64,000 nt of DNA, from positions 5,539,533-5,603,532 of the forward strand of contig NZ_CP009962.1 of assembly GCF_000786695.1 (NCBI RefSeq). Direction: 5' to 3'. The notes beneath the pieces are model-generated. The model was given only the letters and a program-made list of their open reading frames with translations, was not told the DNA's origin and searched no databases. Positions 8,599 to 11,635 of the stretch are shown piece after piece. The number at the start of each line of letters is the position of its first letter. Position 1 is the first letter of the stretch. This stretch comes from Collimonas arenae. Lineage in GTDB: Bacteria; Pseudomonadota; Gammaproteobacteria; Burkholderiales; Burkholderiaceae_D. The position numbers and the translations under genes are program-made.

Positions 8599-9486
8599 AT
8601 GGACCTCACCCAACTTCGCGCTTTCGTCACGGTTGCCCGTGAAGGAAATCTGACACGAGCAGCTGAATTGCTGCATGTCACCCAACCGGCGGTCAGCCTG
8701 CAAATCAAATCGTTGCAAACCAGCCTGAACCTCCAATTATTCATTCGCGTCCCCAGCGGCATGGCGTTAACCGACGAAGGCATCAAGTTACTGCCTTTTG
8801 CAGAACGTGCAATTGCCGTCATGTCCGAACTACGCCAACAAGCCGCCAGCTTACATCCAGGAAACTCAAAAATATTGAGTGGAAAACTCGCGATCGGCAC
8901 CATTCTCGATCCGGAATTTATCCGTCTAGGGGCTTTTCTCCAGCGACTTGTCGAAAGTTATCCACAGCTTTCTACACAATTACAGCACAGCATGTCAGGC
9001 GATGTTTTGCAGCAAATCAAGTCTGGCCATCTCGATGTCGGCTACTACCTTGGTACGCCAAACAAGAGTTTTCACCGCCTGACATTGACACAATTTACTT
9101 ACTGCGTGCTTGCACCGTCCGGTTGGAAAAGCCGGATTTCCGGAAAAGACTGGCCTGCTTTGGCAAAACTTCCTTGGATCTGGACACCGCCAGAGTCGGC
9201 ACATCATCGTTTACTCAGTAAAACGTTTGCACAATATAAAGTTATTCCGAATAAAGTTGCCTTGGTTGACCAGGAACCATCAATGCTAGACCTAGTGAAA
9301 TCCGGCGTCGGACTTTCACTTGTCAGAGAATCAATTGCATTGCGTGAAGCGCATGCGCATGGCCTGGTCATTTCCGACACGGTCAATTTATCGACAGAAC
9401 TTTCGTTTATTACACTGGATAAACGTAAAGATGAACCGGTTATTGCCGCAGTCTTTGCCATATTGAAAACAATCTGGAAAACCTGA
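8599..9486 (+). CDS. LysR-family regulator of the mmsA cluster
   Basis: LysR-type transcriptional regulator, 295 aa. The N-terminal winged helix-turn-helix (residues about 1-60) contains LTRAAELLHVTQPAVSLQIKS, the family recognition helix region. A LysR substrate-binding domain follows from about residue 90. It is transcribed away from mmsA, the standard arrangement of a LysR activator and its target. By context it should sense the substrate or CoA intermediate of the adjacent dehydrogenases. The start at 8599 gives the canonical MDLTQLRAFVTVA opening; the Shine-Dalgarno region is weak. Confidence 0.9.
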   Translation: MDLTQLRAFVTVAREGNLTRAAELLHVTQPAVSLQIKSLQTSLNLQLFIRVPSGMALTDEGIKLLPFAERAIAVMSELRQQAASLHPGNSKILSGKLAIGTILDPEFIRLGAFLQRLVESYPQLSTQLQHSMSGDVLQQIKSGHLDVGYYLGTPNKSFHRLTLTQFTYCVLAPSGWKSRISGKDWPALAKLPWIWTPPESAHHRLLSKTFAQYKVIPNKVALVDQEPSMLDLVKSGVGLSLVRESIALREAHAHGLVISDTVNLSTELSFITLDKRKDEPVIAAVFAILKTIWKT

Positions 9487-9561
9487 TCTTCTGAAAGCTG
9501 GTTTTGAGGGGTACATTCACCCTTTTTTCAGTTTTCTCGCCTCTTCGTGTTTACGTTTACT

Positions 9562-9707
9562 GATTTATATATATGAATAGTAGTAATAGTTAACACCCTG
9601 CTTTTCTGTGGATAAGTCGAAATTTGACTATTCATTCAATCACTTACAACTTGGATAAGCGCTGAGTAAACCTTGTATCTGGAAAGAACATTTCTTGGAT
9701 AAAAATA
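9562..9707 (+). repeat. Direct repeat copy 1 of DnaA-box block
   Basis: Begins GATTTATATATA and runs through GTTAAC, CTGCTTTTCTGTGGATAA, TTCATTCAAT, CTTGGATAA and a second CTTGGATAA followed by an A-tract. The same elements recur in the same order 393 bp downstream, with substitutions between copies. It contains one perfect and two near DnaA boxes. Confidence 0.85.
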
Positions 9708-9954
9708 GGGTTGTGAATAACAGCTTCGCTTATGCACATTGGATTCCTATAGTTATCCAAAGACTTATCCACAGTTGCATTTTTGCAGTTCTTCTAAATT
9801 ACCTTTCTGTGTCGATTTTTCTTTTACTTTGTTAAAAGCCTTTCTTGAGAAAACACCGTTTTTTTTCATAAAAATTGCTTTTCTAACCTCAATTCTGAAA
9901 TTGTTTTTTTTAAGACAACTTCAAAAGAAAAAGCTTTTCGGTTTTGTATTTAAA

Positions 9955-10100
9955 GATTTATATATATAAATAGTAATAGTAGTTAACGTCCTGCTTTTCT
10001 GTGGATAACCAAGAATTTGACCGTTCATTCAATGACTTACTACTTGGATAAACGCTTGGTAATCGGTGTATCACAGCAGAATAATTCTTGGATAAAAAGT
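9955..10100 (+). repeat. Direct repeat copy 2 of DnaA-box block
   Basis: Second copy at a 393-bp offset: GATTTATATATA, GTTAAC, CTGCTTTTCTGTGGATAA, TTCATTCAAT, CTTGGATAA, and CTTGGATAAAAA at the end. The DnaA-box-like 9-mers and TA-rich start are conserved better than the sequence between them, which suggests the boxes are under selection. Confidence 0.85.
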
Positions 10101-10304
10101 CGTCTGTGGAAAACTAAGTACGATATTCACAATGAGAAAACAGGATTTCCACAGGTTTATCCACAAAATGACGAAAACAAGACATTTTTAATGCTTTTAA
10201 AGCAATAAATGTCTTAGTTCCAAAAAAAATCGTTATCTGCGTAAAAAATGGGCATCGCAGTGGGATGCGAAAAATCTAGACAAGTGAAATGCTATCCTTT
10301 AATG

Positions 10305-10333: not shown

Positions 10334-11635
10334 ATGATCGATCAGCAGACTTTTCTTCGCGATGCGATGCGTCGCCTTAACCTGACCAGAGAAAATTTTT
10401 CGGACCGGATTGGCATCCGAAAGCGCGCGCTGGATACTTGGATTTTGCCCGAAACATCTGGTGAATTCAGGGTTATGCCAGACATTGTGACAAAATTTGT
10501 CAGTGAAATTTTGCATGGTAGTTTGGTCGAATTAAGTAATACGCAGAGCGTATATATCCCTGATCCGAACACACCGCTCCGCTCACGTATCGGCCATGAC
10601 GGCAAACCACAATTGCTTTCTGTAGATCAGTTTTCACGCGATTCGCTCGAAGAACTGTTCCGGGTCGCTGACATCATGCAGCCCATTGCAAGGCGCCAGA
10701 AGGTCTCACGCATCCTCGAGGGGGCCGTACTAGCCAATTTGTTCTTTGAAGCCAGCACGCGCACGCGTATCAGCTTTGGTGCGGCTTTTTGCCGGCTGGG
10801 TGGCTCGGTGTGCGATACCACCGGCTTTACTTTCTCATCGATGACCAAGGGCGAGTCGATTTACGACACCAGCCGGGTTATCAGCGGTTATGTCGACGCA
10901 TTGGTGGTACGCCACCCGGAGCAAGGCGCCGTGGACGAATTCGCTCGCGCCACCAACATCCCTGTGATTAACGGCGGCGACGGACCAGGCGAGCATCCAA
11001 GCCAGGCGATTCTCGACCTGTACACCATCCAGCGCGAGTTCTCCCGCTTGGGCAAACTGGTCGACGGCGCTCACATCGTCATGGCCGGCGATCTGAAGTA
11101 CGGACGCACGGTGCATTCTCTGATCAAGTTGCTGGCACTGTATTGTGGTCTCAGGTTCACCCTGATTGCGCCAACCGGCCTTGAGATGCCAGCGCACATC
11201 CTGGAACGCATCGCCCGCGGCGGCCATGTAGTGGAAACCTCGACCTCATTGGCGCACGGCTTGAAAGGCGCGGATATCGTCTATGCAACGCGAATTCAGA
11301 AAGAGCGCTTTGCAGATGAAGCGATCGAAGGCTATACCCCGGATTTCCAGATTAATCAGGCCTTGATCAATGCCACCTGCAGTGCCGATACCATCGTCAT
11401 GCATCCCCTGCCGCGCGACGGTCGGCCAGGGGCAAATGACCTCAGTACAGACATGAATCATGATCCACGGCTGGCGATCTTTCGCCAGACCGATAACGGG
11501 ATCCCGGTAAGAATGGCGATTTTCGCGACCTTGCTAGGCGTGGAAAACCAGGTACAGCACTCGATGCGCGACGTGACCTGGCGTTCGCCCCACCATGTGG
11601 GGCCTGATGATGCGGCGTTTGACGGTTTGGATTGA
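10334..11635 (+). CDS. Aspartate carbamoyltransferase with N-terminal helix-turn-helix-like extension
   Basis: 433 aa, against about 310 for a standard PyrB catalytic chain. Residues about 95-405 hold all ATCase hallmarks: STRTR (141-145) for carbamoyl phosphate, TKGES with Lys172, RHPEQGA (193-199), GDGPGEHPSQAILDLYTI, GDLKYGRTVHSL (252-263), ATRIQKERF and HPLPR (357-361). It should make N-carbamoyl-L-aspartate for pyrimidine synthesis. Residues 1-62 resemble a small helix-turn-helix domain (ENFSDRIGIRKRALDTWILP). The start at 10334 is set by AAGGAG seven bases upstream. No pyrI, pyrC or pyrR lies nearby, so the main PyrB may be elsewhere. The long form is known to me from other Burkholderiales; the role of its extension is not. 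Confidence 0.85.
   Translation: MIDQQTFLRDAMRRLNLTRENFSDRIGIRKRALDTWILPETSGEFRVMPDIVTKFVSEILHGSLVELSNTQSVYIPDPNTPLRSRIGHDGKPQLLSVDQFSRDSLEELFRVADIMQPIARRQKVSRILEGAVLANLFFEASTRTRISFGAAFCRLGGSVCDTTGFTFSSMTKGESIYDTSRVISGYVDALVVRHPEQGAVDEFARATNIPVINGGDGPGEHPSQAILDLYTIQREFSRLGKLVDGAHIVMAGDLKYGRTVHSLIKLLALYCGLRFTLIAPTGLEMPAHILERIARGGHVVETSTSLAHGLKGADIVYATRIQKERFADEAIEGYTPDFQINQALINATCSADTIVMHPLPRDGRPGANDLSTDMNHDPRLAIFRQTDNGIPVRMAIFATLLGVENQVQHSMRDVTWRSPHHVGPDDAAFDGLD
10540..10556. promoter_or_regulatory. Palindrome inside the HTH/ATCase gene (site 2)
   Basis: TACGCAGAGCGTATATA, 16 of 17 bases identical to the site at 10305-10321, centred 235 bp away. Including the preceding base, the arms are ATACGC/GCGTAT. 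It lies at codons 69-75, at the junction of the extension and the catalytic domain. Spacing is suitable for looping between two operator sites. Confidence 0.45.

Follow-up and report, generated by a model that had tools for sequence, protein, structure and literature searches.

The window, the whole stretch of 64,000 nucleotides that was analysed, is the final 64 kb of the 5.60-Mb contig of Collimonas arenae; the genus is placed in the Oxalobacteraceae of the Burkholderiales. dnaA begins at contig base 1 and thus, provided that the contig is a closed circle, lies just past the window end. A cluster of 14 DnaA boxes occupies non-coding DNA 54 kb from dnaA, between the gene of a LysR-family regulator on the left (8599–9486, + strand; Pfam HTH_1 and LysR_substrate) and a pyrB-type aspartate carbamoyltransferase gene on the right (10334–11635, + strand, with an inferred start codon). 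The latter matches NCBIfam PRK11891.1 at 788 bits when the translation is taken from 10331. Its PyrB-like protein is 89–93% identical in six named Collimonas records and at most 79% identical in the other 74 loci kept. pyrB was tried as a general marker of the array and rejected, the array lying upstream of it in the 6 Collimonas of 80 named loci and in 0 of the 74 others, five of which had less than 4 kb of upstream DNA. Two sites matching the parS motif are located 11 kb to the left of the cluster; the sole other match to this motif is at 1.26 Mb. An Rfam search gave nothing at the cluster, its only match being a Betaproteobacteria toxic small RNA far away (RF02278, 58461–58527, − strand, 51.5 bits).

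A sequence scan recovered all four perfect DnaA boxes of the original prediction (9607, 9765, 10000 and 10157) as well as TTATTCACA at 9712. The predicted density is also borne out, the tally of boxes with up to two mismatches in 9562–10165 being 14 rather than 13 (four perfect, four with one mismatch and six with two). Eight of these have at most one mismatch, against a mean of 0.19 and a largest value of 3 when this 604-bp stretch was shuffled 500 times by mononucleotide. This density is exceptional, as any 604-bp span starting outside 9000–10300 (50-bp steps) holds at most two such boxes. Genome-wide (5.64 Mb) there are 34 perfect boxes, four of them in this cluster. An extra perfect box within the lysR gene (8958–8966, + strand), found also in other Collimonas loci, may be a coding coincidence. 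We note that a second DnaA-box cluster lies outside the window, around 55 kb to the left of the putative origin described below (G000:C1:5493912-5494462; L033:14380-14930). It contains an internally repeated box pair, its flanks read by eye as priA and hemE, and it matches 14 of 14 same-genus relatives, in G001 as two short pieces only. This second cluster could be a datA/DARS-like site; the putative oriC that has been placed beside hemE in Ralstonia pickettii may be compared with it (PMC4403523).

The 9562–10165 cluster contains a direct duplication. Its predicted offset of 393 bp is correct and its length is slightly greater than the 145 bp claimed, with 181 bp matching ungapped at 77% identity; by profile the repeat unit extends further, to about 214 bp. 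What the original prediction missed is that each repeat amounts to a whole origin module. Module A (9561–9775, + strand, unwinding side left) and module B (9953–10166, + strand, same orientation) match the profile with E values of 7e-52 and 2e-46, and a whole-genome model built from 48 modules with 1.1e-38 and 2.4e-34. Searching the genome with this model located two full modules, both in the cluster; the next matches (E 0.33 and 0.45) are fragments. From left to right both modules comprise an AT tract, DnaA-trios, TTAAC, a GC-rich spacer ending in TTTTC, an R1-like box, an IHF-like site, weaker boxes and an R4-like box. In module A the AT tract (9564–9577, + strand) is followed by four trios, TAGTAGTAATAG (9578–9589, + strand), and then TTAAC, assigned from sequence and conservation. 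The perfect R1-like box (9607–9615, − strand) comes next, then the IHF-like site 27 bp from R1 (9634–9646, + strand), five weaker boxes from the box scan (9650, 9694, 9712, 9730 and 9753; together 9650–9761, no strand assigned) and, 158 bp from R1, the perfect R4-like box (9765–9773, + strand), which is invariant in 13 Collimonas genomes. Module B repeats this arrangement with four trios, TAGTAATAGTAG (9971–9982, + strand), and then TTAAC, likewise assigned from sequence and conservation, R1 (10000–10008, − strand), the IHF-like site again at 27 bp (10027–10039, + strand), weaker boxes at 10043, 10087, 10105, 10123 and 10145 (10043–10153, no strand assigned) and R4 at 157 bp from R1 (10157–10165, + strand), the last two kinds of box and R1 all coming from the scan. 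The spacer from trios to R1 is 17 nt in both. The modules are thus in tandem, 393 bp apart, with a linker (9776–9952) that is gene-free in Collimonas. The IHF-like sites are predicted from the IHF consensus, to which each has one mismatch. A site with at most one mismatch is present in 42 of 48 modules, compared to 2.8% of shuffles, and sits at offset 27 from R1 in 45 of 48; the offset in E. coli oriC is also 27. As sequence-level features of an origin, a box cluster in non-coding DNA and an AT tract with DnaA-trios beside a box are observed for both modules.

The strand asymmetry was compared at the cluster and at dnaA, where oriC had been expected. In C. arenae (G000) GC skew was computed over 20-kb pieces. 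All 10 of those between 5.34 and 5.54 Mb have negative values, and all 3 that cover the remainder of the contig after 5.56 Mb, the final one of 4 kb, have positive values. The cluster lies in a piece whose overall skew is negative, with −0.101 over the 10 kb left of the cluster and −0.002 over the 10 kb right of it. The first 20 kb past dnaA has a skew of −0.026, after which 8 of 8 pieces are positive to 180 kb. Elsewhere in the sampled chromosome 20 of 21 pieces are positive (0.24–2.86 Mb) and 18 of 19 negative (2.97–5.29 Mb). The best change point falls at 18.0 kb of the window (95% bootstrap interval 5.4–39 kb), 8 kb to the right of the cluster, with a score of 20,686; the cluster itself scores 20,325 and dnaA 15,368, and 0.5% of bootstraps fall at or beyond 60 kb. 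When five Collimonas genomes were fitted over a shorter range, the cluster outscored dnaA in all five. The best change point lies +0.4, +7.6 and +6.8 kb from the cluster in G000, G005 and G009, and +71 and +79 kb from it, beyond dnaA, in G003 and G012. The check that had been suggested, whether the skew minimum is near 10 kb or near dnaA, therefore gives a change point near the cluster and not at dnaA, with a resolution of several kb and with two of the five Collimonas genomes fitting another point. The 20 kb past dnaA is negative in all five genomes with both flanks positive, a pattern that fits no simple reading; in C. arenae the same stretch (G000:C1:1-20000) has a low GC content of 0.508. 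The cleanest skew case among the genomes sampled is G085, which belongs to a different genus of the family and has about 362 kb between dnaA and its array. All 6 samples taken in that interval are negative, and all 4 taken on the far side of the array are positive. G032 is negative in 3 of 3 samples before its array, gives +0.014, 0.000, −0.003, +0.057 and −0.019 from array to dnaA, and +0.057 and −0.009 beyond; G067 is noisy in 8-kb samples. KOPS counts near the cluster are sparse.

The two boxes predicted in the rpmH–dnaA interval are there, one perfect (63844) and one with a single mismatch (63794). Boxes are present in the dnaA–dnaN interval as well, but no run of three trios and no module was seen in either interval. 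An origin at dnaA was therefore rejected. DnaA-control loci of the datA or DARS kind lie outside the origin; they have DnaA boxes (and IHF) but no unwinding element. The dense boxes and IHF-like sites of the cluster would suit such a locus, and the boxes of the rpmH–dnaA and dnaA–dnaN intervals would suit an origin at dnaA. We nevertheless consider this combination improbable: both copies have a trio-bearing AT tract, the skew switches near the cluster rather than at dnaA (in G085 likewise), the parS sites are 11 kb from the cluster and no module is found near dnaA.

Relatives retain the array, as the suggested check of synteny and conservation shows. Its DNA matches 12 of 14 same-genus genomes at 77–83% identity and, in part, 11 other genomes of the family. 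A strict two-box pattern of R1, 144–152 bp and R4, in which the spacing is thus preselected, is present in 199 of the 294 genomes of the family, spread over 26 of 44 genera, and outside the family in 6 of 290 genomes of the order; the reversed control pattern is found in none of the family genomes listed. When 20 loci were retrieved by similarity alone, the R1–R4 spacing was 156–158 bp in 34 pairs of perfect boxes; three pairs are 122–123 bp apart by way of an extra box and 16, at 528–636 bp, span two modules. Profiling of 66 arrays from pattern-matched genomes gave one module in 10, two in 46 and three in 10, counted within the fetched stretch. The 56 multi-module arrays are head-to-tail in 53 cases and have modules facing each other in three. 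For three of the ten single-module arrays (G077, G149 and G103) a second module is located 2.3–3.2 kb away. At least three trios accompany 127 of 128 modules, compared to 0 of 62 other boxes in sampled G000 stretches; the profile was seeded with trio-bearing modules and so favours trios among its matches, four of the 132 modules were dropped because R1 was too diverged, and some of the 62 control boxes were counted twice. A looser model found a module in 38 of 47 genomes, a set that comprised 38 without the strict pattern and 15 from other families. The nine without a match were the same-genus G001 (1.7 Mb) and G004 (86% complete), six other family genomes and G331. Among 24 genomes the distance from dnaA to the array ranges from 6 kb (G263) to approximately 362 kb (G085), some values being approximate. 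Outside the family, in f31, origin-like modules are observed on opposite strands around 3 kb apart (G409:C2:85664-89060 and G570:C1:84772-88011; L353 and L354). In G409 both modules have trios and a YbdK-type carboxylate-amine ligase gene and an antiporter gene lie between them; in G570 the second module is weak and without recognisable trios. A third f31 genome (G482, 1.2 Mb) has two-box modules at C2:41575 and 58853, 17 kb apart and identical over the 80 letters listed.

This conservation also bears on whether an integrated plasmid or phage replicon left the cluster behind. AT-rich DNA and repeats in tandem are features that plasmid origins can show, but the array persists in 12 of 14 same-genus genomes and partially in 11 further family genomes. 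It is flanked by the LysR-family and aspartate carbamoyltransferase genes, the ten ORFs scanned include no replication initiator, and the 64-kb window has no tRNA. We regard an integrated replicon as extremely unlikely. Among the three options that the original prediction left open, a functional origin is well supported, to judge by anatomy, strand asymmetry, the position of parS and conservation, and the control locus and the integrated replicon are both disfavoured. The cluster is thus very probably the chromosomal oriC of C. arenae, located 54 kb from dnaA and composed of repeated complete modules.

The two modules were compared across 13 Collimonas genomes by mean pairwise difference. The AT tract differs by 0.041 in A (over 9561–9573) and 0.045 in B, the trio region by 0.040 and 0.023, R1 by 0.017 in both and R4 by 0.000 and 0.017. 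The linker is fast-evolving at 0.315 (over 9774–9952) and the outside DNA at 0.34–0.37. The statement that the boxes are better kept than the DNA between them therefore holds for the four R1 and R4 boxes (0.000–0.017). The IHF-like site, with 0.105 in A and 0.172 in B per pair against 0.121–0.182 in its surroundings, is not singled out in Collimonas. Departures in single genomes are seen in G009, where R1 of A is altered, and in G008, where R1 of B is. In a FastTree tree of 132 modules, used for topology only, the A copies (13) and the B copies (13) fall into two separate groups; the duplication is thus older than the radiation of the sampled Collimonas and the copies have not been homogenised. 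Concerted evolution was considered and rejected, A–B identity being 0.767 within and 0.762 between Collimonas genomes. In genera g4, g6 and g12 the first modules cluster apart from the last modules in the same tree (topology again). The 215-bp tree gives no decision on the ancestral copy across genera.

The similar constraint on the trios of A and B argues, without amounting to proof, that both copies are able to serve as opening sites. The main rival accepts the locus as oriC but has one module opening, the other being an accessory DnaA-binding array that loads or titrates DnaA, like the half of bipartite origins that lacks a DUE. Bipartite origins with a single unwinding element are known (PMC8235120), and the second module of G570, outside the family, has no recognisable trios. 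In Collimonas the AT tract and the trios are, however, equally kept in A and B, and we therefore hold the accessory role to be possible but somewhat doubtful. From the similar constraint we infer instead, with moderate confidence, that both modules take part, either as alternative opening sites or in one cooperative orisome.

DnaA and IHF binding, unwinding and firing at the modules are here predicted from sequence. In each module, DnaA would load on R1 and R4 and then occupy the weaker boxes between them, and IHF may aid this filling by bending the DNA 27 bp from R1. The DnaA filament on the R1 side would then pass onto the strand of the DnaA-trios, and opening of the AT tract would be followed by helicase loading. 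With two units 393 bp apart, either one could open, or DnaA on one could assist the other. Whether this family, and perhaps much of the Burkholderiales, has a natural multi-unit origin in which two or three complete modules can each open seems to us an evenly balanced question. Such a multi-unit origin would place initiation control over two or three adjacent opening sites, where the E. coli model has just one, and the modules would have been separate functional units since before the Collimonas radiation. G409, from another family, would then represent a divergent, split start region with a module either side of two genes, around 3 kb apart.

The usual model of oriC has a single unwinding element. 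An oriC away from dnaA is of an already known kind; what looks new is the repeated complete module that is kept across Collimonas and recurs through the family. Searches of the open-licence literature turned up no account of complete oriC modules repeated in tandem for this family. If correct, a family-wide origin of two or three complete units, each conserved in its own right, would mean that opening sites can change in number during evolution, and it would offer a natural system for asking how initiation is then kept to one event per cell cycle. The combination of trios, R1, an IHF-like site and R4 at about 157 bp also provides a sequence rule that locates the candidate origin even in genomes whose dnaA is as much as about 362 kb distant. 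The rule may help with origins left uncertain, for example that of Burkholderia cenocepacia c1, whose features seemed dispersed (PMC4948915). In Janthinobacterium HH01 the likely origin was placed by skew and by dnaA, dnaN and gyrB (PMC3566124).

The oriC of E. coli is itself not adjacent to dnaA. It (NC_000913) shares with the Collimonas modules R1 on the side that unwinds, R4 at the opposite end, weaker boxes between and the IHF-like site 27 bp from R1. It is, however, one unit with R1 and R4 180 bp apart, whereas Collimonas has two units with 157–158 bp (156–158 bp across loci), and the Collimonas modules, unlike E. coli oriC, have TAG trios with GTTAAC. The basal unwinding system (BUS) has the DnaA box, the spacer and the repeated DnaA-trios in the identical order and orientation; the spacer limit given for the BUS search is 16 nt, one below the 17 nt of Collimonas, and that survey, as described, kept one BUS per origin so that repeats would go uncounted (PMC8287927). 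The bipartite origins of Helicobacter pylori and Bacillus subtilis likewise have two DnaA-box clusters per origin, but with dnaA between the clusters and the DUE in one half (PMC8235120); in Collimonas dnaA is 54 kb away, the AT tract and trios are in both units and the linker is gene-free. On chromosome 1 of Cupriavidus metallidurans the skew switches around 90 kb from dnaA, adjoining 213 nt with three perfect DnaA boxes; no modules, trios or duplication are described in the excerpted text of that report (PMC2864759). Regarding double origins, Gao 2015, in the part excerpted, states that the use of two functional origins by one chromosome then lacked evidence, and gives a list of DoriC candidates (PMC4403523). 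A tandem duplication in M. bovis BCG is among the putative double origins (PMC4403523; PMC2448323), and a later paper mentions a single-chromosome V. cholerae strain as having two functional origins (PMC10225481). As far as these sources describe them, the double-origin cases are far-apart, gene-cluster or fused-chromosome duplications, whereas those of Collimonas are short modules 393 bp apart, genus-wide and recurring in the family.
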